64,000 bases of DNA from Qipengyuania sp. SS22 (lineage in GTDB: Bacteria; Pseudomonadota; Alphaproteobacteria; Sphingomonadales; Sphingomonadaceae), in assembly GCF_025736935.1 (NCBI RefSeq), contig NZ_CP107048.1, forward strand, positions 1,616,001 to 1,680,000, written 5' to 3'. This document shows positions 8,894 to 33,625 of this stretch, one piece after another (position 1 is the first letter of the stretch; each line of letters starts with the position of its first letter). Both the position numbers and the translations under genes were made by a program. Below the pieces are notes generated by a model. The model worked only from the letters and a program-made list of their open reading frames with translations. It was not told the DNA's origin and ran no database searches.

Positions 8894-11866
8894 ATGACCA
8901 GATTCACTTTACGCCACAGTTGCGCGATCTGCGCACTCGCGATTTCGGCTCTGTCGGCGAGCCCTGCTCTCGCCCAAGCGGAGGTCGAGACCGCCGGAGC
9001 GGCGAACCAGAACGATAACCGCATCATCGTTACCGGCTCCTATATCCGCGGCACTCCCGAGGATGCGGCGCTGCCCGTGGACGTCTTCACCGCCGACGAT
9101 CTGGCCGAGCAGGGCGTCGACAGCCCGCTCGAATTCATCAAGGAACTGCCCTCGGTCGGCGCCTCTTTGGGCGACACCAACCAGTTCTCCACCGACGCGC
9201 AGGGCTTCCAGGGCGTCGGCTCGCTCAATTTGCGCGGCCTCGGGCCGCAGCGCACGCTGGTGCTGCTCAACGGCAAGCGCACGATCCTGACGCCGGGCGC
9301 CGGGTTCGTCGATACGCAGCTGATGCCGCTGTTCGCGCTCGAACGGATCGAGCTGCTCAAGGACGGTGCCGGGTCGACCTACGGGTCGGATGCGATTGCC
9401 GGCGTGGCGAACTTCATCACCCGCTCGACCTTCACCGGCTTCGAACTGCAGGGCGATTACAATTTCATCGACGGTTCCGACAACAATTACAGCCTCAGCG
9501 CACTGGCCGGGTTCGAGTTCGCCGATTCCGCCAATTTCGTGATTGGCGCAGGCTGGCAGCACCGCAGCGAACTCGGTGCGAACAAGCGCGATTTTGCCAA
9601 TGTCGGCTACGAAACAAATCCTTCGGCTTATTCGGCGCTCGCCACGCCGGGGCTGTTTGCCGTCAGCTATTTCGATACCGGCACCAATACGGTGAATACG
9701 CAGCTGCGGCCTGACGTCGGTTGTGAGGATCTCGGCGGAACGGTCGATATCGGTCGCTGCTATTTCACCTATGTTCCGTTCGACAACATCACCGAGGACG
9801 AGGACCGTTACCAGGTCTTCGGCGAACTCACGATCGACCTCAGCGATACGATCCGGTTCCAGGCCGACGCGCTTTATTCACGCAGCGAGCTGACCTCGCT
9901 CAACTATTCGCCGGCATTCCCGCCGACACAGGGACCGAACGGTTCGGGCTTCGTCAGCGCGTTCACGACCTCCCCGGCGAACCCCGGGGTGGCGGCCTTC
10001 CTCGACCAGGTCGGACTGCCGCAGAGCTCGCCTACCTCGCCGATCGTGGCGGTCACCAATGTTCTCTTTCGCCCGTTCGGCTTTCTCGGCAATCCGCTCG
10101 ACCCCGATCGCGGTGCCGGCACCGGTGGTGCGGTCAACGATGCCTTCCGCTTCAGCGGCGGCTTCGAATTCGCGCTCAGCGATACGCTCACCTTGAACGT
10201 GGATGGCACGTTCTGGGAATCGGATCGTGAAGCCTACGCGCCCGGCATCATCGGCTCGCGCCTGCAGGCCGCGCTGAACGGCTTCGGTGGCTCCGATTGT
10301 ACCGGGACCACAGCGGGCGAGAATGGGTGCCTGTGGTTCAACCCCTTTGCCAATGCTGGCGCCGGCAACGGGACATTCAACATCGACAATCCGTTCTACG
10401 TCCCGGGCAACGAGAACAGCCAGGAGCTGGTCGGCTGGCTGCAGGTACCCAACGGCACCCGTGAACAGGAATCGCAATTCGTGTTCGACATGGTCCTCGC
10501 GGGCGAAACCGGGATCCAGCTTGGCGGCGGTCCGCTGGCCTTCGCCGTCGGCACCCAGTTCCGCGATACGCGCTATTCCAGCGATCCGATCATCCCGGAA
10601 TCCAATGTCGACATCAATCCGTGCTTCGTCGAAGGCGACCAGAGCTGTGTCGGCACCACCACCGAAGGGGTCGGCCCGTTCATCTTCCTCGGCGGTTCGC
10701 GCCCGGTGAAGTTACAGCAGGACGTTTATGCCTTTTTCGCCGAGGTGAACGCACCGATTACCGACCGGATCGAACTGTCGGCGGCAATCCGTTTCGAGGA
10801 TTACGGCAGCCCGATCGGATCGACGATCAATCCCAAGGGTTCGGCCCGCTTCGAGGTGACCGACTGGCTGACCCTGCGCGGATCGGTGGGCACCACCTTC
10901 CGCGGCCCGCTGGCATCGAACGTGTCGCCCAACTTCGTCACCGCACTCGAAGGCTTCACGGCGGCAGGCGGCAATTACAAGTCGAAGGACATCTACGGTA
11001 ATCCGACCGATCTCGATCCCGAAACCGCCTTCACCTACAATATCGGCGCAATCTTCTCGGCGCCGGTCGGCGGTGGCGATCTGACCTTCTCGGTCGACTA
11101 CTGGTCGATCGATCTAAAAGACCGCATCACGATCACTCCAGGCAATGCGATCGCGAGCTATGTGGGCAATTTCCAGACCACCGGTCAGGAAGCGGTCGAC
11201 TGTTCGAGCCCGCTGGTCAATCTGGTTACCTTCTCGAACAACCAGTGCATCCAGGGCACCACACTGGGGATCGACATCAGCCGCGTGCGGACCGATTTCG
11301 TCAATGGTCCGGACGTCAAGATCGCGGGTCTCGATTTCGCCTTCGACGCCGAATTCCCGCTGGGCGACAAGGCCGAGCTGGGCTTCGGGGCCAATGCGGT
11401 GTGGAATCTCGATTACAGCTTCGACGATTTCATCGTGCAGGATGTCAATGTCCAGCCGGCCTACGATGCGGTCGGCTTCGGCAATTACTTCCGCGATCCG
11501 AACACGGTGCCGGAATGGCGCGCCAATGCCTTCGTCCGGCTTGGCTTCGGCGATTTCAATGCGCGCTATTCGGTCCAGCATATCGACGGCGTGACCGACG
11601 ATCGCTGCGTCACCCGCGATCCCTGCTTCAGCACGGCTGGCGGTGTCGGGACCAACTTCGGTGTCGAGAGCGGGTCGTACACGCAGCACGATTTCTCGGT
11701 CACCTACGATCTCCAGCTTGCAGGTGCGGATGTGCAGGTGCAGGTGTCGGTCGACAACTTCACCGATGCCGAACCGGCCGAGGCACAGCTGCCGCTGGGC
11801 TACAACCCGTTCATCGGCAATGCCATCGGCCGGAACTATCGTCTTGGTATCCGGACCCGCTTCTAG
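8894..11866 (+). CDS. TonB-dependent outer-membrane receptor (second of two)
   Basis: A 990-residue receptor. A signal peptide (about residues 1-27, ending near ALAQA) is followed by a TonB-box-like RIIVTGSYIRG and a plug with GSLNLRGLGPQRTLVLLNGKR and ELLKDGAGSTYGSDAIAG, all hallmarks of the large oar-like/CirA-like receptors of sphingomonads and xanthomonads. The barrel ends RLGIRTRF. GAGGGAGAG precedes the ATG at 8894. Its first residues resemble those of the first receptor (RHxCAxxALA), suggesting related leaders, but the mature parts differ in length and plug type. Substrate unknown. Confidence 0.93.
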   Translation: MTRFTLRHSCAICALAISALSASPALAQAEVETAGAANQNDNRIIVTGSYIRGTPEDAALPVDVFTADDLAEQGVDSPLEFIKELPSVGASLGDTNQFSTDAQGFQGVGSLNLRGLGPQRTLVLLNGKRTILTPGAGFVDTQLMPLFALERIELLKDGAGSTYGSDAIAGVANFITRSTFTGFELQGDYNFIDGSDNNYSLSALAGFEFADSANFVIGAGWQHRSELGANKRDFANVGYETNPSAYSALATPGLFAVSYFDTGTNTVNTQLRPDVGCEDLGGTVDIGRCYFTYVPFDNITEDEDRYQVFGELTIDLSDTIRFQADALYSRSELTSLNYSPAFPPTQGPNGSGFVSAFTTSPANPGVAAFLDQVGLPQSSPTSPIVAVTNVLFRPFGFLGNPLDPDRGAGTGGAVNDAFRFSGGFEFALSDTLTLNVDGTFWESDREAYAPGIIGSRLQAALNGFGGSDCTGTTAGENGCLWFNPFANAGAGNGTFNIDNPFYVPGNENSQELVGWLQVPNGTREQESQFVFDMVLAGETGIQLGGGPLAFAVGTQFRDTRYSSDPIIPESNVDINPCFVEGDQSCVGTTTEGVGPFIFLGGSRPVKLQQDVYAFFAEVNAPITDRIELSAAIRFEDYGSPIGSTINPKGSARFEVTDWLTLRGSVGTTFRGPLASNVSPNFVTALEGFTAAGGNYKSKDIYGNPTDLDPETAFTYNIGAIFSAPVGGGDLTFSVDYWSIDLKDRITITPGNAIASYVGNFQTTGQEAVDCSSPLVNLVTFSNNQCIQGTTLGIDISRVRTDFVNGPDVKIAGLDFAFDAEFPLGDKAELGFGANAVWNLDYSFDDFIVQDVNVQPAYDAVGFGNYFRDPNTVPEWRANAFVRLGFGDFNARYSVQHIDGVTDDRCVTRDPCFSTAGGVGTNFGVESGSYTQHDFSVTYDLQLAGADVQVQVSVDNFTDAEPAEAQLPLGYNPFIGNAIGRNYRLGIRTRF

Positions 11867-11890
11867 GCGGTTCCGGCACCACCCGTCACG

Positions 11891-11920
11891 AAGGGCCCGA
11901 GGCGCAAGCTCCGGGCCCTT
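11891..11920 (+). terminator. Possible weak terminator hairpin between the second receptor and the SDR gene
   Basis: Nine-base arms AAGGGCCCG (11891-11899) and CGGGCCCTT (11912-11920) flank a 12-base interior. No T-run follows, so termination is likely partial at best, and the SDR gene 25 bases further on may be read through. Confidence 0.5.
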
Positions 11921-11945
11921 CCCATTGCTCACAAAGGAAACCACC

Positions 11946-12710
11946 ATGTCGCCATTCGACCTGACCGGGAAAGTCGCTATCGTCACCGGATCGAGCCGCG
12001 GGATCGGCCGCGCCATTGCCGAGGGCCTCGCGGCGCAGGGCGCGCGCGTGGTCATCTCAAGCCGCAAGCAGGACGCCTGCGAGGAAGTTGCCGCCGAAAT
12101 CAATGCCGCGCATGGCGATGGCAGCGCCGTCGCGATCGCAGCGAGTATTTCGGAAAAAGTGCAGCTCGAGGATCTGTTCGTGCAGACCGCCGCCCAGCTC
12201 GGCCCGGTCGATATCCTCGTCTGCAATGCGGCGAGCAATCCCTATTACGGATCGATGGACGGGATTGCCGACGAGCAGTTCCGCAAGATTCTCGACAACA
12301 ATGTCCTGTCGAACCACTGGCTGATCCAGCTGGCGCTGCCCCATATGCGCGATCAGGGCGACGGCGCGATCGTGATCATCAGCTCGATCGGCGGCTTGCG
12401 CGCCTCGACCGAGATCGGCGCCTATTGCATTTCCAAGGCGGCCGACTTCCAGCTGGTGCGCAATTACGCTGCCGAGAATGGCAAGCACGGCATCCGCGTC
12501 AACGGCATCGCGCCGGGGCTGGTCAAAACCGATTTCGCCAAGGCGCTATGGGAAAATCCGCAGGCACTGACCGCGACCGAGAAGGCGCTGCCCATGCGCC
12601 GGATTGGCGAGCCGGGCGATATTGCCGGTGCCGCAGTCTACCTGTCCTCACCCGCCGCGAAATGGACCACAGGCCAGACCATCGTTGTCGATGGCGGGGC
12701 GACGATCTAG
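11946..12710 (+). CDS. Short-chain dehydrogenase/reductase (SDR, classical type)
   Basis: A 254-residue classical SDR using NAD(P)H. The cofactor motif TGSSRGIG is at residues 14-21, NAAS near 94-97, and the catalytic serine, tyrosine and lysine at about S147, Y160 and K164 (Y-x-x-x-K in AYCISK). The C-terminus IVVDGGATI is typical. An open frame extends upstream to 11643 but overlaps the TonB receptor; the ATG at 11946 follows AAAGGAA. Context with acyl-CoA genes suggests a 3-hydroxyacyl or steroid/alcohol substrate, which cannot be settled. It converges on the efflux operon. Confidence 0.92.
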   Translation: MSPFDLTGKVAIVTGSSRGIGRAIAEGLAAQGARVVISSRKQDACEEVAAEINAAHGDGSAVAIAASISEKVQLEDLFVQTAAQLGPVDILVCNAASNPYYGSMDGIADEQFRKILDNNVLSNHWLIQLALPHMRDQGDGAIVIISSIGGLRASTEIGAYCISKAADFQLVRNYAAENGKHGIRVNGIAPGLVKTDFAKALWENPQALTATEKALPMRRIGEPGDIAGAAVYLSSPAAKWTTGQTIVVDGGATI

Positions 12711-17059: not shown

Positions 17060-17713
17060 TTGTCAAGTAACGAAGCGAAACGTACCGGGCGTCCGGCCGA
17101 CGAGGCCAAGCGCGAGGCGATCCTGGCGGCAGCTGCGGCCAGCTTCTTCGAGCGTGGCTTTGCGGCCAGTTCGATCGAGCAGATCGCGGCCGATGCCGGC
17201 GTTTCCAAGGTCACGATCTACAACCGTTTCGGCGACAAGCGCGCGCTGTTCGCGGCGGCGGTCGAAATGGAATGCGAGCAGATGCGGGGCAGCTTGCAAG
17301 TGCCCGAGGTCGCCTCGGGCAGCCTGCGCGACCGGCTGACCGCCGTGGGCGAGGCCATGGTCGCCTTTACCTCGCGGCCCAAGATGGTCCAGTTCGACCG
17401 CCGCATCGCAGCAGAGACCGAGCATGACCCCGCGGTCGGTGCAGCCTTCCTGGAGGCCGGCCCCCATCGCATGAAGCAGTCTTTCGCGGCGCTGATCGCC
17501 GCCATGCACGAAGCGGGCGAAGTCGAGGTGGCGGACCCTGCACTCGCTGCCGAACAATTCGCCAGCATGTGCAAGGGTATGGGCGATCTCGAACGCCGCT
17601 TCGGCGCCCCCGTCGACCCGCAGCGCAATCGCAAACGGATCGCCGGCGCGGTCGAAGTGTTCTGCCGTGCCTATGCCAGCGACCCGGCCTGCGAGAGCGA
17701 AGCGGGAAGCTAG
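17060..17713 (+). CDS. TetR-family repressor of the divergent exporter operon
   Basis: A 217-residue TetR protein with helix-turn-helix around residues 20-65 (IEQIAADAGVSKVTIYNRFGDK) and a C-terminal domain of the TetR_C_7/AefR type. It starts with TTG; no better start exists, and GGAGG lies eight bases upstream, inside the second operator half, so binding could also block translation signals in DNA or limit its own transcription. Its stop shares the palindrome CTAG with the stop of motB on the other strand. Autorepression plus control of the exporter is the likely arrangement (inference). Confidence 0.9.
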   Translation: MSSNEAKRTGRPADEAKREAILAAAAASFFERGFAASSIEQIAADAGVSKVTIYNRFGDKRALFAAAVEMECEQMRGSLQVPEVASGSLRDRLTAVGEAMVAFTSRPKMVQFDRRIAAETEHDPAVGAAFLEAGPHRMKQSFAALIAAMHEAGEVEVADPALAAEQFASMCKGMGDLERRFGAPVDPQRNRKRIAGAVEVFCRAYASDPACESEAGS

Positions 17714-18537
17714 TTCTCCAGCGAGATCGATATCCGGCGGTTGCGCGGGTCGGTGGGGTCGCCCGCAATCAGCGGTTCGGTATCGGCAACCCCCTCGATC
17801 CGGCGGAACCGCTCGCGCGAAATCCCGTGACGGATGAGATCCTGCCGCGTCGTTTCGGCGCGTCCGGCCGAAAGCGACCAGTTGTTGACCCGCGTCGGGT
17901 CGCGATATTTGAGCGCATCGGTATGGCCGCGCACAGTGATCTTGCCGCCTTCGGGCGCAATTGCCTCTGCGACGAGATCGAGCAGGTCGCGCGCATCGGT
18001 GGTGAGGACCGTCGTGCCGAGCGAGAACATCGAGAAATCCGCATCATCGACCAGATCGATCCGGATGCCGGTGGTGGTGTTGATCATCCGCACCTGGCCC
18101 ATCAGCCGCTTGAGCCGTTCGCGGTCAGCGACCGCTTCGGTTACGCGCTGCTGGATCCGCTTGATGCTCGCCGTGCCTTCCTTGGACCCGCCCGTCGCAT
18201 CGCGGGGAACGGTCAGGGTCTTGGTCCCGGTCTGCCCTGCGGCATGCGGGTAGTTATCGACGTCCACCAGCGAAGAACCGCCCAGAACGCCGTCCGCGCC
18301 CGCGCTTTGTTCCTTGGTCTTCACCAGCGTCGGAGTGAAGTAATCGGCCAGCCCCTTGCGCTGGTCCTCGGTGGTCGCGCCGAGTAGCCAGAGCAACAGG
18401 AAAAAGGCCATCATCGCGGTGACGAAATCGGCATAGGCGACTTTCCACGCGCCGCCATGATGACCCGCTTCGACGACGGTCACCTTCTTGACGATGATCG
18501 GGGCCGGATCGTTGCGCCCGGCGGCGGAGCTGGCCAT
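17710..18537 (-). CDS. motB: Flagellar motor stator protein MotB
   Basis: A 275-residue stator subunit. A cytoplasmic start is followed by a single membrane helix carrying the proton-accepting aspartate, D37 in AYADFVTAMMAFF, then a plug/linker and a C-terminal OmpA-like peptidoglycan-binding domain (RGHTDALKYRDP, NNWSLSAGRAE). It binds the cell wall and, with MotA, forms the ion channel that drives rotation. It starts one base after the motA stop. The motAB pair sits at the downstream end of the flgB-flgL run. Confidence 0.95.
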   Translation of the reverse strand: MASSAAGRNDPAPIIVKKVTVVEAGHHGGAWKVAYADFVTAMMAFFLLLWLLGATTEDQRKGLADYFTPTLVKTKEQSAGADGVLGGSSLVDVDNYPHAAGQTGTKTLTVPRDATGGSKEGTASIKRIQQRVTEAVADRERLKRLMGQVRMINTTTGIRIDLVDDADFSMFSLGTTVLTTDARDLLDLVAEAIAPEGGKITVRGHTDALKYRDPTRVNNWSLSAGRAETTRQDLIRHGISRERFRRIEGVADTEPLIAGDPTDPRNRRISISLEN

Positions 18538-18538
18538 G

Positions 18539-19402
18539 TTACCGCCCTCGCAGCGCGTCGAGGAGTTCGTTCAGCCCGGGCCGCACGCTGTGGCCGAGCC
18601 CCGACCGCGCGCTTTCCACCACCAGCGGCTGCGGATGGCCATAGAGCGAGGCAATGATCACCTGCTTGACCGCGTGGAATATCTGCTCGTCCTGTTCGAG
18701 CACCTGCTTCAGCCGTCCCGCAAGCGGACCGACGATGCCATAGGCAAGCAGCACGCCGAGAAAGGTGCCGACCAGCGCGGCGCCGATCATCTTGCCGAGG
18801 ATTTCAGGCGGTTTGTCGATCGAGCCCATGGTCTTCACAACGCCCAGCACGGCGGCAACGATGCCCAGGGCGGGGAGCGCATCCGATAGTGTTTCGAGAT
18901 TGTGCTGCGGTTCGCGCAATTCGTGGAAATGCGTCTTCATCGCATTGTCCATGACCTCTTCGACCGCATGCGTTTCCAGCGTGCCGGAGGATACCACCAG
19001 CAGCGTCAGCGTGTCGCAGATCAGCGCGACCAGCGCGGTGTTCTTGAGCAAATTGGGATAAGCGCTGAACACGGTGGAATTTTCCGGTTCCTCGAGATGG
19101 CTTTCGAGCGCCACGGGTCCATCGTTCTTGAGCATGCGCATCAGCTGCGTGGTCAAGGCGATCGCATCGATATGGTCCTGCTTGTCGTGCTGGGGCCCCT
19201 TGAAGATCTTCCCGAATGCACGGCCGATCGCCTTCAGCCCGTCGAGCGAATTGCCCGCGACCATCGCGCCGATCGCGGCACCGCCGATGATCAGCATTTC
19301 ATAGGGCATGGCGGCCATCACCGGGCCCAGCGCGCCGCCGCTGAGCATGAAGCCGCCGAACACCATGACGAGCAGGACAACAATGCCGATAATCGCGTAC
19401 AT
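18539..19402 (-). CDS. motA: Flagellar motor stator protein MotA
   Basis: A 287-residue protein with four membrane segments: two near the N-terminus (about 1-20 and 30-50) and two near 180-230, with the family stretch PALGIVAAVLGVVKTMGSI and a charged cytoplasmic loop between. It torques FliG when protons pass through the MotA/MotB channel. A GAAGGAA ribosome site precedes the ATG. Only 26 bases separate it from flgL, so it is probably transcribed with the flg genes. Confidence 0.95.
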   Translation of the reverse strand: MYAIIGIVVLLVMVFGGFMLSGGALGPVMAAMPYEMLIIGGAAIGAMVAGNSLDGLKAIGRAFGKIFKGPQHDKQDHIDAIALTTQLMRMLKNDGPVALESHLEEPENSTVFSAYPNLLKNTALVALICDTLTLLVVSSGTLETHAVEEVMDNAMKTHFHELREPQHNLETLSDALPALGIVAAVLGVVKTMGSIDKPPEILGKMIGAALVGTFLGVLLAYGIVGPLAGRLKQVLEQDEQIFHAVKQVIIASLYGHPQPLVVESARSGLGHSVRPGLNELLDALRGR

Positions 19403-26139: not shown

Positions 26140-26421
26140 TCAGATTTCGGTGGCGGACTGGGTGGTGACGATCAGCTGGTCGAGCTTGTCCGCGATCTGC
26201 TCGAGCATGGCATTGGTTTCCGACACGCCGGCGAGCGAGGAGAACTGCGCCATCTGGGCGAGCATTTCCTTGTTATCGACCGGATCGAACGGATCCTGCT
26301 GTTGCATCTGGACGGTCAGCAGGCGCAGGAAATCGCCCTGCCCCAGCGCGTCCATGCCGCGGCCGGATGTGGAAGTGGTGGAAGCGACCGGCGAGGTCGT
26401 CTGGGTAGTTATGGTGGTCAT
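26140..26421 (-). CDS. flgD: Hook-cap protein FlgD, minimal N-terminal form
   Basis: A 93-residue protein equivalent only to the conserved N-terminal FlgD region: DFLRLLTVQMQQQDPFDP, then NKEMLAQMAQFSSLAG and a helix. Usual FlgD proteins exceed 200 residues and have a C-terminal Tudor/Ig-like domain, absent here. The stop is clean and the next gene follows in 15 bases, so this looks like the true gene and not a frameshift. Its start overlaps the flgC stop. Confidence 0.9.
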   Translation of the reverse strand: MTTITTQTTSPVASTTSTSGRGMDALGQGDFLRLLTVQMQQQDPFDPVDNKEMLAQMAQFSSLAGVSETNAMLEQIADKLDQLIVTTQSATEI

Positions 26422-26828
26422 TTCATTCTCATCGTTTCGAGCATGAGCTGCTTGGCGGTCGACATGGCCTCGACCATGTTGCGGTACTGGCGCGAGGCTT
26501 CGAGCATCTCGACCATCTCGGCGTTCTCATCGACGGGGGCTTCCCAGACATCGCCATTCTCGTCGGCGAGCGGGTGGCCCGGATCGTGACGGCGGATCGG
26601 CGCGACATCTTCGCGCACCACCCCGCCGACGCGGACCGACGAAAGCCCCGAGGCACGGTCGAGCTCCTGCTCGAACACGGTGCGCATCGGGCGGTAGGCT
26701 TCTTCCTCGCTGCCCGAGACCGAACCCGCATTGGCCAGGTTCGACGCCGCGGTGTTCATCCGCACGAGCTGCGCGGACATGGCGCGGTGGCCAACCTCGA
26801 AGAAGGATGTGGGCCCCGCCATCGTCAT
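26418..26828 (-). CDS. flgC: Proximal rod protein FlgC
   Basis: A 136-residue rod protein with the axial signature near the N-terminus (QLVRMNTAASNLANAGSV) and a C-terminal coil (ENAEMVEMLEASRQYRNMVEAMSTAKQLMLETMRMK). The ATG at 26828, overlapping the flgB TGA, is preferred over the upstream extension, which would swallow flgB. Another ATG lies two codons on at 26822. Confidence 0.93.
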   Translation of the reverse strand: MTMAGPTSFFEVGHRAMSAQLVRMNTAASNLANAGSVSGSEEEAYRPMRTVFEQELDRASGLSSVRVGGVVREDVAPIRRHDPGHPLADENGDVWEAPVDENAEMVEMLEASRQYRNMVEAMSTAKQLMLETMRMK

Positions 26829-27172
26829 TCGCCCCGGATCGCGCGGGTGACGGTTTCGACCCGTCCGCGCAGGAAGTTGAGCGTGGCGGTGTAGGCAACC
26901 GCGTTTTCGGCGAAGGCGGCCTGTTCGGTCGACATCTCGACCGTGTTGCCGTCGAGGCTGGCCATGGTCGGAATACGGTACTGGATCGCGCCATCGGTCG
27001 CGCGGTCGGCCTGCGCGCCGCCCAGGCGTGCCTGCAGCGCGGCAGCAAAGTCCACGTCGCGGGCCTTGTATCCGGGTGTCGCCGCATTGGCGATATTCGA
27101 ACCGAGCACACCCATGCGCTGCGACCGGATCTCCAGTGCCGCCCCGTGAATGCCGAACAAACCTTCGCTCAT
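26825..27172 (-). CDS. flgB: Proximal rod protein FlgB
   Basis: A 115-residue rod protein, first gene of the flgBCDEFGHIJKL-motAB run. It shows the axial stretch QRMGVLGSNIANAATPGYKARDVDF and a C-terminal helix. GGAGG lies seven bases before the ATG. A near-perfect sigma-54 promoter is 33 bases upstream. Confidence 0.93.
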   Translation of the reverse strand: MSEGLFGIHGAALEIRSQRMGVLGSNIANAATPGYKARDVDFAAALQARLGGAQADRATDGAIQYRIPTMASLDGNTVEMSTEQAAFAENAVAYTATLNFLRGRVETVTRAIRGE

Positions 27173-27204: not shown

Positions 27205-27220
27205 AGCAAGGGGCGTGCCA
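27205..27220 (-). promoter_or_regulatory. Sigma-54 (-24/-12) promoter of the flgB operon
   Basis: Reading leftward, TGGCACGCCCCTTGCT matches the RpoN consensus TGGCACG-N4-TTGC at every conserved place. Transcription would begin near 27195, about 20 bases before flgB. The following GAACA is shared with the site at 29763. Confidence 0.93.
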
Positions 27221-27304: not shown

Positions 27305-27331
27305 TAAATCCTGCCCAGCCCGCGCCGTTCT
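27305..27331 (+). promoter_or_regulatory. Sigma-28 (FliA)-type promoter of the MotA-like gene
   Basis: TAAATCCT (27305-27312), 11 bases, then GCCGTTCT (27324-27331) follow the FliA pattern TAAA-N15-GCCGATAA. The start would be about 18-20 bases before the ATG at 27356. Confidence 0.65.
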
Positions 27332-27355
27332 TGGTCAGCAAGGAGTAGCTACCCC

Positions 27356-28012
27356 ATGCTGGAAACCTGGTTCGATCCCGAAGCGATCGCCATTGTCCTC
27401 GTCGGCACGCTCGTCGCCACGCTGCTGCGTTGCGGGGTGGCGGACAGCCGCATCGCCATCGGCGCATTGCGCGGATTGTTCGAACGCGCGTTCGACGTGG
27501 CGCGGGCCAAGGGCGAACTGGCCCTGCAGATCCGCGAGATTGCCGATGACGGCTTTATCCGCGCCGAGCCGCATCATTTCGGCGATAGCGAATTCGACAG
27601 CCTGTCCGATCTGATCATCAGCCAGCGTTCGATCCAGTCGCTTCACGGCGAACACCAGAAATTCAAGGAAGCGCGGCTGGCCAATGCGCAAACCGCCATG
27701 CGCGTGTTCGATTGCGCGGCGGAACTGGCGCCGGTGCTGGGTCTGGCGGGCACGCTGGTCGCGCTGGGCCAGGCGCAGGGAACGGCGGCGCAGGATACCG
27801 GCCTGGTCGGCGCTATCGCCATGGCAGTCGTCACCACGCTGTACGGCCTCCTGGCCGCGAATTTCCTCTTCGCCCCACTGGGCAGCGCGATTGCGCGCAA
27901 GTCGCGGCAGGAAGAGCGCGACCGCGATGCAGTTCTCGAATGGCTCGCCCACGGGATACGCCAGACCGGCGTGGCCAGCGGCGCGCCACACAGCGAGCGC
28001 GACGCGGCATGA
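27356..28012 (+). CDS. MotA/TolQ/ExbB-family proton-channel protein (second stator-like subunit)
   Basis: A 218-residue membrane protein. One hydrophobic segment lies near residues 10-28 and two near 122-143 and 152-176. The last two match MotA/ExbB helices 3 and 4 (APVLGLAGTLVALG; AMAVVTTLYGLLAANFLFAPLG). A charged cytoplasmic region lies between. It is shorter than MotA (287 residues, encoded at 18539) and lacks a fourth clear segment, so it is nearer TolQ/ExbB in plan. AGGAG precedes the ATG. It overlaps the next gene by ATGA, and that gene encodes a one-helix protein with an aspartate at the helix start, as in ExbD/MotB. A FliA-type promoter precedes it. Likely an accessory stator or energising unit; the function is not established. 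Confidence 0.8.
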   Translation: MLETWFDPEAIAIVLVGTLVATLLRCGVADSRIAIGALRGLFERAFDVARAKGELALQIREIADDGFIRAEPHHFGDSEFDSLSDLIISQRSIQSLHGEHQKFKEARLANAQTAMRVFDCAAELAPVLGLAGTLVALGQAQGTAAQDTGLVGAIAMAVVTTLYGLLAANFLFAPLGSAIARKSRQEERDRDAVLEWLAHGIRQTGVASGAPHSERDAA

Positions 28013-28464
28013 TCCTGCGCGCGGCTTCGGGCTGGCAAACGGTAACCGCGGACCTCGCGCTGATCCTGTTCCTGATCACGGCACAGGCGGTGCGCGAGAC
28101 TCCCGCCCCGCCGCCAGAAGTCGAGGCCGAAATCGAAGCCGAGCCCGAGGCTGAAATCGACGTTGAAGAACCGGCGCCGGTGACATCCTCCGCACTTGCG
28201 CTGCACAAGCCCGCGCCGGGCGAAAGCGTCCACGAATGGCTGCTCGCCGCCGTTACCGACGAGCGGCAGGTCGCAACGATTTCGATCGGCTATGCCCCGG
28301 GCCAGCGCGAACAAGCCCTGGCAGAAGGCGAACGCCTGCTGGGTGAAGCCGAGGCCGCCGGCGTCGCCGCGCGGCTGATCGCGATGCCGAACGCGTCCGA
28401 CGACATCCTCGTGTCGGTCGATTACCTCCGCACGGCGCCGGATGGCACGAACCTTGCTCCGTAA
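28009..28464 (+). CDS. Small ExbD/MotB-like membrane protein, partner of the MotA-like protein
   Basis: A 151-residue protein I cannot assign firmly to a named family. A single hydrophobic helix (about residues 13-28, TADLALILFLITAQAV) has an aspartate, D15, where ExbD and MotB carry the proton-binding residue. An acidic, proline-rich linker (about 32-60) follows, then a periplasmic domain of about 75 residues. That domain's stretch ISIGYAPGQREQALAEGERL loosely recalls an OmpA-type fold without its peptidoglycan motif. The ATG overlaps the upstream stop. The sigma-54 promoter of flgA lies inside its last codons. Confidence 0.7.
   Translation: MILRAASGWQTVTADLALILFLITAQAVRETPAPPPEVEAEIEAEPEAEIDVEEPAPVTSSALALHKPAPGESVHEWLLAAVTDERQVATISIGYAPGQREQALAEGERLLGEAEAAGVAARLIAMPNASDDILVSVDYLRTAPDGTNLAP
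28443..28458 (+). promoter_or_regulatory. Sigma-54 promoter of flgA
   Basis: TGGCACGAACCTTGCT is a perfect -24/-12 element located in the last codons of the ExbD-like gene. It would start transcripts near 28469, 50 bases before flgA. Confidence 0.9.
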
Positions 28465-28518: not shown

Positions 28519-29034
28519 ATGCGTCACACATTGCCCCTAACACTCGCCGCCGCGCTGTGTGCGAGCGCCGCCGCCGCAGCAGCGCCCATGGACCTGTCGA
28601 TCATCGATCGCGCGGTCACCGATTTCACCGGCGCCGATATCGGCCAGCCAGGGGGCGCCAAGCTACCCGTCGACCGCCGCCTGAGGCTCACCGCCTGCCA
28701 ATCGCCGCTCGACCTGCAATGGTTCGGCCGCGACCAGCGTTCGGTCCAGATCGCCTGTCCGAGTGCGGGCTGGCGTATCTATGTCGCCGTCGACGGCGGT
28801 TCGGGCAGCGGCCGCTACGCCGCCGCCCCCGAATATGGCGAGACGATCGTCGCGCGCGGCGAGAACGTCAGCATCCTCGTGCGCGGCAAGGGGTTCACCC
28901 TCACCCGGCAGGGGGCTGCCGTGGAAGACGGCGCGCGGGGCGAATGGATCAAGGTCCGCGCCACTGGGCAGCGCACCGAAACGCTGCGCGCAATGGTGAT
29001 CCGCCCGGGCCAGGTCGGCATCGATTTGCCGTAA
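28519..29034 (+). CDS. flgA: P-ring assembly chaperone FlgA
   Basis: A 171-residue exported protein with a signal peptide (about 1-22). A C-terminal SAF-like domain has the FlgA stretches RGENVSILVRGKGFTLTRQGAAVEDG and EWIKVRATGQRTETLRAMVI. It helps FlgI polymerise in the periplasm. It is somewhat shorter than the enterobacterial protein (about 220 residues). Confidence 0.9.
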   Translation: MRHTLPLTLAAALCASAAAAAAPMDLSIIDRAVTDFTGADIGQPGGAKLPVDRRLRLTACQSPLDLQWFGRDQRSVQIACPSAGWRIYVAVDGGSGSGRYAAAPEYGETIVARGENVSILVRGKGFTLTRQGAAVEDGARGEWIKVRATGQRTETLRAMVIRPGQVGIDLP

Positions 29035-29051: not shown

Positions 29052-29113
29052 GGGGAGTTAAACCCGCGCATCGATCGCCGTTCTGTTGGTCAACCAGCTT
29101 ATGGAGCGAAACG

Positions 29114-29810: not shown

Positions 29811-30665
29811 GTGCCTACAGTCAGTCCAGTCCAGAATGCCGATGTGCAGGGTGCGATCTCCCGCGCCGCGACGCGGACGGGTGTCGATTTCGATTACCTG
29901 CTGGCGCAGGCCCGGCTCGAATCCGGGCTCGACCCCAGCGCCAAGGCCCAGACCTCGAGCGCCTCGGGTCTCTACCAGTTCATCGATTCCACCTGGCTGC
30001 GCACGCTCGACCGGCATGGCGCGAAGCATGGCATGGACTGGGCCGATGCGGCGATCACGCCCAATGGCCGCGTGGCCGATACCGCCACGCGCCAGCATCT
30101 CCTGTCGCTGCGCTACGATGCCGATACCTCGTCGCTGATGGCAGCCGAACTGACGCGCGAGAACGCCGCGGGTCTGCGCACCAGCCTGGGGCGCGAAGCC
30201 GAACCGGCAGAACTCTATCTCGCGCATTTCCTCGGCCTTGGCGGCGCGCAGCAATTCCTGGGGGCGCTGGGCAGCAATCCCGACCAGTCGGCCGCGGCGC
30301 TGATGCCGCGGGCTGCGCGTGCCAACCGCTCGATCTTCTATAGCGGCGGATCGCCGCGTTCGGTCGGCGAAGTCATGACGCTGATGCGCGACAAGGTATC
30401 GGCGGCCTATGGCGACATGCCGATGCCATCCGGCGGCAATCGCGTGGAATTCGACGCGGCCCGCTTTGCCGCGCATGCGCCCGCCAGCACCAGCCGGCCC
30501 AGCCGCGGCAGCCTTGCGCTGCCCGCCCTGCCCGGACCCGGAGGGCCGCGTCCGTCGATGGCCGACACGCTCCGCAACACCTTTGGCGAAGGCGGCGCCG
30601 GCACAGGCCGCGCGAATGAGCATATCGCTGCCGCCTATGGCAAGTTCAGGGCGCTCGGCCTGTGA
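29811..30665 (+). CDS. Lytic transglycosylase (SLT family), flagellum-associated
   Basis: A 284-residue protein with an N-terminal SLT domain: candidate catalytic glutamate E37 in LAQARLESGLDPSAKA and the ASGLYQFIDSTWL motif. It would cut peptidoglycan so the rod can pass, replacing the muramidase half missing from FlgJ (21683). No signal peptide is seen, so it may leave through the flagellar export apparatus, as known for similar enzymes (inference). The C-terminal third is low-complexity (Ala, Pro, Gly, Arg). It starts with GTG after GGAGG, and its TGA overlaps the GTG of flhA. Confidence 0.88.
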   Translation: MPTVSPVQNADVQGAISRAATRTGVDFDYLLAQARLESGLDPSAKAQTSSASGLYQFIDSTWLRTLDRHGAKHGMDWADAAITPNGRVADTATRQHLLSLRYDADTSSLMAAELTRENAAGLRTSLGREAEPAELYLAHFLGLGGAQQFLGALGSNPDQSAAALMPRAARANRSIFYSGGSPRSVGEVMTLMRDKVSAAYGDMPMPSGGNRVEFDAARFAAHAPASTSRPSRGSLALPALPGPGGPRPSMADTLRNTFGEGGAGTGRANEHIAAAYGKFRALGL

Positions 30666-32764
30666 ACCCGCTCCGCTTCATCAACCCCGGCCTCGCGCTG
30701 CCGATCGGTATCCTGACGATCATCCTGCTGATGGTCATGCCGATCCCGGCCATGCTGCTCGACGTCTTCTTCGTGCTCAATATCGCGCTGTCGGTTTCGG
30801 TGCTGATGGCGGCGATGAACGCGCAGAAGCCGCTCGATTTCTCCTCCTTCCCTTCAGTCCTGCTGTTCGCCACGCTGCTTCGGCTCGCGCTCAATGTCGC
30901 GTCGACGCGGATCGTGCTGCTCAACGGGCATGAAGGCGGCGCTGCCGCGGGCAAGGTCATCGAGGCCTTCGGCGCCTTCCTCATCGGCGGCAATTTCGCC
31001 GTCGGTATCTTCGTCTTCCTGATCCTGATGATCATCAACCTGATGGTCGTCACCAAGGGTGCCGGTCGCGTGTCGGAAGTGTCTGCGCGTTTCACGCTCG
31101 ATGCGCTCCCCGGCAAGCAGATGGCGATCGACGCTGATCTCGCCGCTGGGCTGCTGACCGCCGACGAAGCCAAGGCCCGCCGCCGCGAAATCGCCACCGA
31201 GGCCGATTTTTACGGTTCGATGGATGGCGCCAGCAAGTTCGTGAAGGGCGATGCCGTCGCCGCGCTGCTGATCCTGCTGATCAACGTGATCGCGGGTCTG
31301 GTGCTGGGCATGTCGACCCACGATCTTTCGGCGGGCGACGCCGCCAGCTTCTATATCACGCTGGCTGTGGGCGATGCACTGGTCGCTTCGGTCCCGGCAC
31401 TGCTGCTGTCGATCGCGGCCGCGGTTATCGTTACCCGGGTTTCCGATGCGCGCAACCTGACCGACCAGATCAGCGGGCAATTGTCCGATCCCAAGATCTG
31501 GCTGCCCGTCGCCTGCATCCTGTTCATCATCGGCTGCATCCCCGCGATGCCGCAATCGATCATCCTGCCGCTGGCGGCGGGGGCGTTCTGGCTGTGGCAC
31601 AGCCTGCGCAAGCGGGAAGAGGCCGAATTCAACGTTCCCGAGACGGTGGTCATTCCCGACCCGGCGCATATCGCGATCGACGAGGTCACCGACCAGACGC
31701 TGGTTACCATCCAGCTCGGCTATGGCCTCATCCATCTGACCGACGAGAAACACGGCGCCACGCTGATCGCGCGGCTGACCGGGCTGCGCAAGCAGATGTG
31801 CCAGACCTTCGGCTTCATCGTGCCGCAGTTCCGGATCGAGGACAGTTTCGAGGTCGATCCCGACAGCTATCGGATCACGCTTGGCGGCGCAGCAATCGGC
31901 GGCGGCAAGATCAAGCCGCACCATCTGCTCGCCATCGATACGGGCGACGTCATGCATTCGCAGGCCGTCCCCGGCGAAGCGACGATCGACCCCAGCTTCG
32001 GCTGCCCCGCCCTATGGATCGATGCGGGTTCGCGCGACCTTGCGGTGGCCGAAGGCTATCTCGCGGTCGATCCGGAAAGCGTCATCGCCACGCAGATCCA
32101 CCAATTGCTCGCCGTCAGGGCGCAGGATCTGCTCGGCCCCGACCAGGTCCGCGACCTGATCGACCATTTGCGCGGCCGCCATGGCCAGCTGATCGAGACC
32201 ATCACCCCGCAGCCGCTGTCGCTCGCGGCGGTGACCCGGCTGCTCAAGGCACTGCTCGCCGACGGGATTTCGCTGCGCCATTCGCTGCGCGTCTTCTCGA
32301 GCCTTTCGCTCGCCGCGCAGCAGACTGTCGAACACGACCGCCTGATCGACATCGTCCGCGCCGATCTTGGCGCGATGATCGTCGCCGAGGCCTGCCCGCC
32401 CGATGCCAAATTGCCGGTCATCACGCTGGCCGCCCAGCTCGAGGACATGGTGGTCGGCGGGCTGCAGGACCCGGCTTCGGGCGAGATCGTGATCGAACCC
32501 GACCTCGCCCGCTCGATCGGCGAGCGTATCGCCGCCATCGTGGCGCAGCGCGATCCTGCCGCCACCCGGCCTGCACTGATCGTCCAGCCGCGCGCGCGCC
32601 GCGCGCTGACCGCGCTGCTGCGCCTGCGCGCGCCGCATTGCCTGGTGCTGTCGATCAACGAACTCCCCGCTGCCCAGCCGATCGAAGTGATCGCGGTGGT
32701 CGGCGACGAAGCGCCTGCACAACCCGCCCAACTCGGCCATGAAACGGAGGCCCTCGCGGCATGA
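30662..32764 (+). CDS. flhA: Flagellar type III export gate protein FlhA
   Basis: A 700-residue export-gate subunit. About eight membrane segments lie in the first 330 residues, with the FHIPEP-type cytoplasmic stretch around residues 145-170 (RVSEVSARFTLDALPGKQMAID). The large cytosolic domain follows, which docks chaperone-substrate complexes. It begins with GTG inside the transglycosylase stop and overlaps fliA by ATGA. Confidence 0.96.
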   Translation: MNPLRFINPGLALPIGILTIILLMVMPIPAMLLDVFFVLNIALSVSVLMAAMNAQKPLDFSSFPSVLLFATLLRLALNVASTRIVLLNGHEGGAAAGKVIEAFGAFLIGGNFAVGIFVFLILMIINLMVVTKGAGRVSEVSARFTLDALPGKQMAIDADLAAGLLTADEAKARRREIATEADFYGSMDGASKFVKGDAVAALLILLINVIAGLVLGMSTHDLSAGDAASFYITLAVGDALVASVPALLLSIAAAVIVTRVSDARNLTDQISGQLSDPKIWLPVACILFIIGCIPAMPQSIILPLAAGAFWLWHSLRKREEAEFNVPETVVIPDPAHIAIDEVTDQTLVTIQLGYGLIHLTDEKHGATLIARLTGLRKQMCQTFGFIVPQFRIEDSFEVDPDSYRITLGGAAIGGGKIKPHHLLAIDTGDVMHSQAVPGEATIDPSFGCPALWIDAGSRDLAVAEGYLAVDPESVIATQIHQLLAVRAQDLLGPDQVRDLIDHLRGRHGQLIETITPQPLSLAAVTRLLKALLADGISLRHSLRVFSSLSLAAQQTVEHDRLIDIVRADLGAMIVAEACPPDAKLPVITLAAQLEDMVVGGLQDPASGEIVIEPDLARSIGERIAAIVAQRDPAATRPALIVQPRARRALTALLRLRAPHCLVLSINELPAAQPIEVIAVVGDEAPAQPAQLGHETEALAA

Positions 32765-33486
32765 AGTATGACCACTCCCATTTCAATGCGCAGCGCGCCT
32801 ATGCGAGCGAGATCAACGAGCGGATCGGAAACTTCCTGCCGATGGTCCGCAAGCTGGCCTGGTATTACGAGGGCAGTTGCGGCGCATCGGTCGATGTCGA
32901 CGACCTGCTCCAGGCGGGGATGATCGCGCTGACCGAATGCGCGCAGCGTCACGACCGGCCGAGCGAGGATGGCTTTGCCGCCTATGCGAAGATGCGCGTG
33001 CGCGGGGCGATGATCGACCTGTTGCGCGGGCAATCGCCGCATGCGCGCGGTGCCGCAGCGCAGCGCCGCCGGATCGATGCGACCATAGACCGCCTGCACA
33101 GCGCCTTGGGGCGCGATCCCTCGGCTGAGGAGATTGCGCGGGAACTACATGTTTCAGTGGGGGAATATCACGATATGCGAACACAATTGGCGACGCGGGT
33201 CGTGGATCTGGAAGACTGTTATTCCGATTCCAACCCCGCTTTCGGCTCGACCGAGCCCGATGCCGAGGCGCGGCTGCTCGAAGCCGATGACCGGACGGCG
33301 CTCGCCGAAGCCATCGCGCTGCTTCCCGAGCGGTTGCAGCTGATCGTGAAGCTCCATTTTATCGAGGAGCTGAACCTGACCGAAATTGCCGCGGTGCTCG
33401 ATGTCAGCGTTCCGCGTGTCCACCAGCTCAAATCATCCGCGCTGGCGAAGCTCCAACTCGCTATCGTCGAACGCTCGAGCGATTAA
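32761..33486 (+). CDS. fliA: Flagellar sigma factor FliA (sigma-28)
   Basis: A 241-residue sigma-70-family factor. Region 2 includes DVDDLLQAGMIALTECAQRH and FAAYAKMRVRGAMIDLLR. Region 3 has AAQRRRIDATIDRLHSALGR and PSAEEIARELHVS, and region 4 the helix-turn-helix LTEIAAVLDVSVPRVHQLKSSALAKL. It would direct late flagellar genes from TAAA-N15-GCCG sites such as those at 27305 and 33494, held in check by FlgM. Confidence 0.95.
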   Translation: MKYDHSHFNAQRAYASEINERIGNFLPMVRKLAWYYEGSCGASVDVDDLLQAGMIALTECAQRHDRPSEDGFAAYAKMRVRGAMIDLLRGQSPHARGAAAQRRRIDATIDRLHSALGRDPSAEEIARELHVSVGEYHDMRTQLATRVVDLEDCYSDSNPAFGSTEPDAEARLLEADDRTALAEAIALLPERLQLIVKLHFIEELNLTEIAAVLDVSVPRVHQLKSSALAKLQLAIVERSSD

Positions 33487-33493
33487 CAATTGC

Positions 33494-33520
33494 TAAACGG
33501 TGTATGGCTACCGCCGCGAA
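33494..33520 (+). promoter_or_regulatory. Sigma-28 (FliA)-type promoter of the unknown gene at 33626
   Basis: TAAACGGT (33494-33501), 11 bases and GCCGCGAA (33513-33520) fit the FliA pattern, directly downstream of fliA. Confidence 0.6.
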
Positions 33521-33625
33521 AATCGGTGCGGAATTTAGGGTTCAGCCGATGACATGGGTCTTAGTGAAGGTGTACTGACACCGCAACGCGCCCCCTTCAG
33601 GGCTCGTCCGTTGGGAATGCAAGAA

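Follow-up and report, generated by a model that had tools for sequence, protein, structure and literature searches.

A PomA/MotB-type gene pair without MotA helix 1 in the flagellar cluster of Qipengyuania sp. SS22 and other Sphingomonadaceae

The flagellar gene cluster in a 64,000-nucleotide stretch of the Qipengyuania sp. SS22 genome (hereafter the window) carries, besides ordinary motA and motB, a second stator-like pair of genes that we call P1 and P2 and whose reading frames are joined by an ATGA overlap:

27356..28012, + strand: P1, 218 amino acids, a PomA-type MotA homologue without MotA helix 1 and with three predicted membrane helices
28009..28464, + strand: P2, 151 amino acids, MotB-derived, one helix with Asp15, a disordered linker and a short OmpA-like domain without wall-binding residues

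An earlier reading of the letters alone (the sequence-only reading) had taken P1 for a MotA/TolQ/ExbB-family protein and P2 for a one-helix protein with an aspartate; both assignments were confirmed, and the two form a MotA/MotB-type pair. Pfam MotA_ExbB matches P1 (E 2.6e-11), as does NCBIfam PomA (E 3.6e-13), the latter from profile position 28 and far below the model's cut-off. Scans of P2 against Pfam and NCBIfam gave nothing near any family cut-off, and neither protein is named by a curated family in these databases. In the source annotation, relatives are labelled 'hypothetical protein', 'chemotaxis protein MotA' or 'MotA/TolQ/ExbB proton channel family protein'. For two relatives it reads 'alanine racemase' or 'Energy transducer TonB', names that nothing here supports, and the weak matches of P2 and its relatives (alanine racemase, EccE, others) all fell below cut-offs. 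PomA was the best match of P1 in both fold and sequence profile. In the profile comparison that the sequence-only reading had proposed, extended to folds, PomA/MotA came out nearest and no unrelated family reached cut-off; P1 as an ExbB or TolQ was ruled out, PomA/MotA being far ahead.

P1 has the MotA_ExbB domain and stator fold expected of MotA/PomA, but not the four helices that include helix 1. A hydrophobic helix before the match is found in all 35 relatives outside the group and in 1 of 62 group loci; in that locus (L096) the stretch is somewhat hydrophobic (Kyte-Doolittle, KD, 1.68) and precedes the likely start. Whether P1 might have an overlooked helix 1 in front of it was also checked, and there was none; the frame in the window opens 16 codons before the start. 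Thirty-eight of the 55 distinct P1 sequences (alignment A3) form a single branch against 35 four-helix relatives (Shimodaira-Hasegawa-like approximate likelihood ratio test, SH-aLRT, 99). Helix 1 was probably lost a single time, ahead of the divergence of today's sphingomonad pairs. Equivalents of PomA P151, G154, T158 and P199 are kept in 38/38 P1 and that of T186 in 36/38, with Ser in the other two; P151, T158 and T186 all have their equivalents in the window. PomA R88, K89, E96, E97 and E99, the charged rotor-facing residues, correspond to A, D, E, P and H in the window P1, so that only E96 is kept, a difference that may or may not abolish FliG contact.

Asp15 sits at the start of the only membrane helix of P2 (residues 9-28 in the window). 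Its conservation, which the sequence-only reading had wanted checked, is complete: the residue is invariant in 27/27 aligned sequences, and the helix Asp is present in 59/59 loci. The acidic linker described in that reading exists in the window strain and its near kin, whereas in other relatives its columns are mostly gaps. The periplasmic part is a short domain of OmpA-like topology, in which the two wall-binding positions are Ala96 and Glu106 in place of Asp and Arg. P2 falls into three lineages: I, the window's own, of Erythrobacter type (28 chosen P2 in alignment A7); II, Sphingomonas-like; and III, whose alignment (A6) omits the P2 of L054, L057 and L061 (weak stator motif; Asp present). 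The wall-binding Asp occurs in 1/28, 5/7 and 5/6 sequences of lineages I, II and III, and the Arg in 5/28, 7/7 and 6/6, respectively. Likewise, Pfam MotB_plug and OmpA gave no match in the window P2 and in 0/4 lineage I P2, and in lineages II and III together OmpA matched 5/6 and MotB_plug 6/6 (the latter with E up to 0.03, partly below cut-off). The claim of a domain without a clear peptidoglycan-binding motif stands for lineage I and not for lineages II and III, which mostly keep Asp and Arg. In two of the three lineages P2 can still be recognised as a MotB with wall-binding residues, so that the unanchored form is the derived one. No TolR/ExbD domain was matched in P2 by Pfam, and none was among the other matches listed, which does not exclude one.

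The pair is under purifying selection: when the window is compared with L002, L003 and L007, the ratio of nonsynonymous to synonymous substitution rates (dN/dS) ranges from 0.14 to 0.24 in P1 and from 0.14 to 0.35 in P2. Within P2, amino acid changes are fewest in the helix and most in the linker.

The pair lies between the divergent flgB and flgA, and the genes needed to judge its place are the following:

26825..27172, - strand: flgB, divergent neighbour, named from position and sequence, with matches in relatives
28519..29034, + strand: flgA, next gene downstream (Pfam ChapFlgA)
18539..19402, - strand: canonical motA, complete (Pfam MotA_N and MotA_ExbB)
17710..18537, - strand: canonical motB, complete (Pfam MotB_plug and OmpA)
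32761..33486, + strand: sigma-70-family factor fitting fliA (Pfam Sigma70 regions 2, 3 and 4), the name inferred from its place

To the left, on the - strand, flgB stands with hook and ring genes, and to the right follow flgA, flgM, flgN, a transglycosylase gene and flhA. Canonical motA and motB closely follow flgL on the - strand and seem to belong to the flgB operon; as both are complete, the sequence-only reading was right to call the pair extra. Its proposed survey of other sphingomonads bore out the flagellar association, since flgB flanks the pair in 59/59 loci and flgA in 58/59 (L038 has no flgA in its 3.6 kb). In one locus a GGDEF (diguanylate cyclase) gene is inserted in the opposite direction between P2 and flgA (L043:11110-12210).

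A P1 profile search (E < 1e-20) matched 90 of 199 Sphingomonadaceae genomes, or 87 after G298, G320 and G322, which carry the four-helix kind at another place, were set aside post hoc; a genome with a decayed P1 (G175) is still counted among the 87. FlhA (PF00771, E < 1e-50) was found in 137/199 genomes and MotA_N in 126/199, and among the 87 pair genomes FlhA is present in 86 and canonical MotA (MotA_N) in 85. Only one of the 62 genomes without a strong FlhA has the pair; this genome (G367) is 77% complete, and its pair still lies beside flgB and flgA (L096). Conversely, 51 of the 137 FlhA genomes have no pair, though some FlhA matches may belong to type III secretion. Among 31 fetched pair-less loci, 17 have flgB and flgA without P1 between them, and the other 14 have one or both genes missing from the stretch or not in recognisable form. 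Outside the family the pair was not found: 20 chosen profile matches from a 289-genome class sample were all four-helix MotA, 11 by fliG/flhA, nine by motB and none between flgB and flgA. These four helices and different places rule out that all profile matches are of the same kind.

On an FlhA tree of 74 rows, five changes of pair presence are needed, which implies repeated loss, or gain, of the pair. The decayed P1 of G175 (L090:8947-9625) is without the channel residues (threonines) and is followed by no P2, and both genes are absent from a second genome of that genus (G349, L084); P1 and P2 seem to have been lost together. In one pair-less locus (L108 of G261, 10779-12235) 1.6 kb with LPP20 and FlgT_N genes lies between flgB and flgA. 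FlgT_N in place of the pair was not taken as a meaningful pattern: it occurs in 3/199 family genomes, a number too small for any conclusion, and none of the three has the pair. FlgT_C gave no match in the window's own genome. One genome (G297, contigs C2 and C3) has two FlhA genes, and its pair lies 3.3 kb from the FlhA of the flgB/flgA-type cluster and not by the other.

Three promoter-like sites border or overlap the pair:

27305..27327, + strand: sigma-28 (FliA)-like site TAAA-N15-GCCG, 51 bases before P1
28443..28457, + strand: sigma-54-like site TGGCAC-N5-TTGC within P2, at its 3' end; it presumably serves flgA
27206..27220, - strand: sigma-54-like site for the divergent flgB operon

The sigma-28-like site was called on the FliA consensus. 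TAAA-N14-16-GCCG occurs seven times in the window against 3.17 expected, a number reached in 2/100 shuffles. Ten aligned lineage I upstream regions have TAAA and CGTTCT invariant (10/10), with GCCG in seven and GTCG in three. Across all lineages the exact TAAA-N15-GCCG motif is in 11/55 upstream stretches, near-copies included, an undercount where the script picked another start (e.g., L009 has the motif in the aligned set). The window contains three perfect TGGCAC-N5-TTGC sites, where 0.11 would be expected: one precedes flgB, one precedes the transglycosylase gene and one falls within the 3' end of P2. The site in P2 encodes the residues DGTNLA (28443-28464), which explains why this tail of P2 is conserved; coding sequence and promoter overlap here. 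With up to one mismatch allowed, a sigma-54-type site near or just after the end of P2 occurs in 23/27, 0/7 and 5/6 loci of lineages I, II and III, and before P1 in 1/35, 7/7 and 0/9, respectively; in randomised sequences it occurs on average in ≤0.47 loci per set. These positions suggest that in the window's lineage flgA is transcribed from a start of its own and the pair from one of late type, while in lineage II a single early operon seems to contain both the pair and flgA. The FliA-type promoter and late timing claimed by the sequence-only reading fit lineage I and seem not to extend to lineage II.

The computations show that the pair is homologous to PomA and MotB, that helix 1 is missing, that the channel residues and Asp15 are kept under purifying selection on the pair, that the pair lies and co-occurs with flagellar genes, and that the wall-binding residues have been lost in this lineage. 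We favour, with moderate confidence, the explanation that P1 and P2 are a second ion-driven stator-type unit of the flagellum, derived from a PomA/PomB-like stator and acting here as an accessory and not as an ordinary wall-anchored torque generator. The kept Asp15 and channel residues suggest that ion flow still matters, and the missing helix, changed rotor-facing residues and lost wall-binding residues together argue against an ordinary stator in this lineage. In such a unit, five P1 would form a ring around two P2, ion flow past Asp15 would turn the ring, and expression would come later than that of canonical motAB; the P2 domain may hold another periplasmic flagellar part, or the unit may modulate the rotor. 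An accessory unit without a wall anchor was already suggested by the sequence-only reading, and is partly upheld: the accessory role and the lack of an anchor fit lineage I, whereas lineages II and III keep the residues.

Dual-stator bacteria use a second stator for another ion or load, and P1P2 could likewise exert torque on FliG, with P2 held otherwise than by the usual Asp/Arg site. The place within the flagellar cluster and the wall-binding residues of lineages II and III agree with this, as does the PomA-type Thr158 of P1, where the window's canonical MotA has Ala. However, H+-driven TolQ and ExbB also carry Thr at that place, so Thr158 is no proof of sodium use, and with helix 1 absent, the rotor-facing residues altered and the wall-binding residues gone in the window's lineage, we consider an ordinary second stator unlikely. 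It is less probable again that the pair works as a Tol/Exb-type energiser that supplies P/L-ring or outer-membrane steps in flagellum assembly with energy, beside the P-ring chaperone FlgA. The three-helix topology of P1 resembles TolQ/ExbB, flgA is the near-constant neighbour, and in lineage II the two seem to share an early sigma-54 operon, but the nearest kin of P1 are flagellar stators, pair and flgA have separate sites (the pair's of late type) in the window's lineage, and flgA and the ring genes persist in relatives that lack the pair. A stator copy in decay that no longer has a function could account for the losses in P1 and P2, the many flagellate relatives without the pair and the truly decayed P1 of L090; dN/dS well below 1, a nearly invariant P2 helix, channel residues kept throughout save for the two Ser and conserved promoter-like sites make decay very improbable.

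Going beyond the accessory unit that we favour, a tentative possibility is that a stator became an ion-driven rotary energiser free of the wall, shedding helix 1 and then its wall grip, and now works Tol/Exb-like in the motor, driving or holding a periplasmic or outer-ring part, with intermediates in living sphingomonads.

The closest known system is the sodium-driven stator PomA/PomB (PDB 8brd, 8zyv), which shares the fold, the channel residues and the Asp in a one-helix partner; unlike it, P1 has no helix 1, and P2 is about half as long, with no plug match and, in this lineage, no wall-binding residues. The window's own MotA/MotB are of the same overall kind and cluster, but this MotA is of another subtype (nearest PDB entry B. 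subtilis MotA) with helix 1 and MotA_N, and its MotB partner carries both the plug and the OmpA domain. TolQ/TolR and ExbB/ExbD resemble the pair in a channel protein of three membrane helices and a short one-helix partner, but P1 is much nearer PomA in fold and sequence, and the cluster is flagellar. SiiA/SiiB of Salmonella are not known to be flagellar, and SiiA differs in being peptidoglycan-binding by its database entry title. ZorA/ZorB (Zorya) match P1 less well than TolQ does, and none of the genes inspected next to the pair belongs to Zorya.

The textbook working stator is a four-helix MotA with a wall-anchored MotB. A natural Sphingomonadaceae variant without helix 1, in part also without wall-binding residues, bears on which parts ion-driven rotation needs, and the sphingomonad lineages supply extant forms that stand between flagellar stators and energisers of the Tol/Exb type. 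Ready controls exist in relatives that have this cluster but lack the pair.

Two further FliA-like TAAA-N14-16-GCCG sites lie at 29059-29080, just before flgM (29114), and at 33494-33516, before an unnamed 158-amino-acid gene at 33554 without a Pfam match; by these sites, flgM and this gene are possible further late flagellar genes. FlgD (26140-26421) has only 93 amino acids, with little beyond the N-terminal FlgD region. In the FlhA tree, the FlhA of the window (30662-32764) ends a very long branch (4.5 changes per column) and stands away from the other FlhA of its family and order, and the whole flagellar system of the window seems to be fast-evolving.
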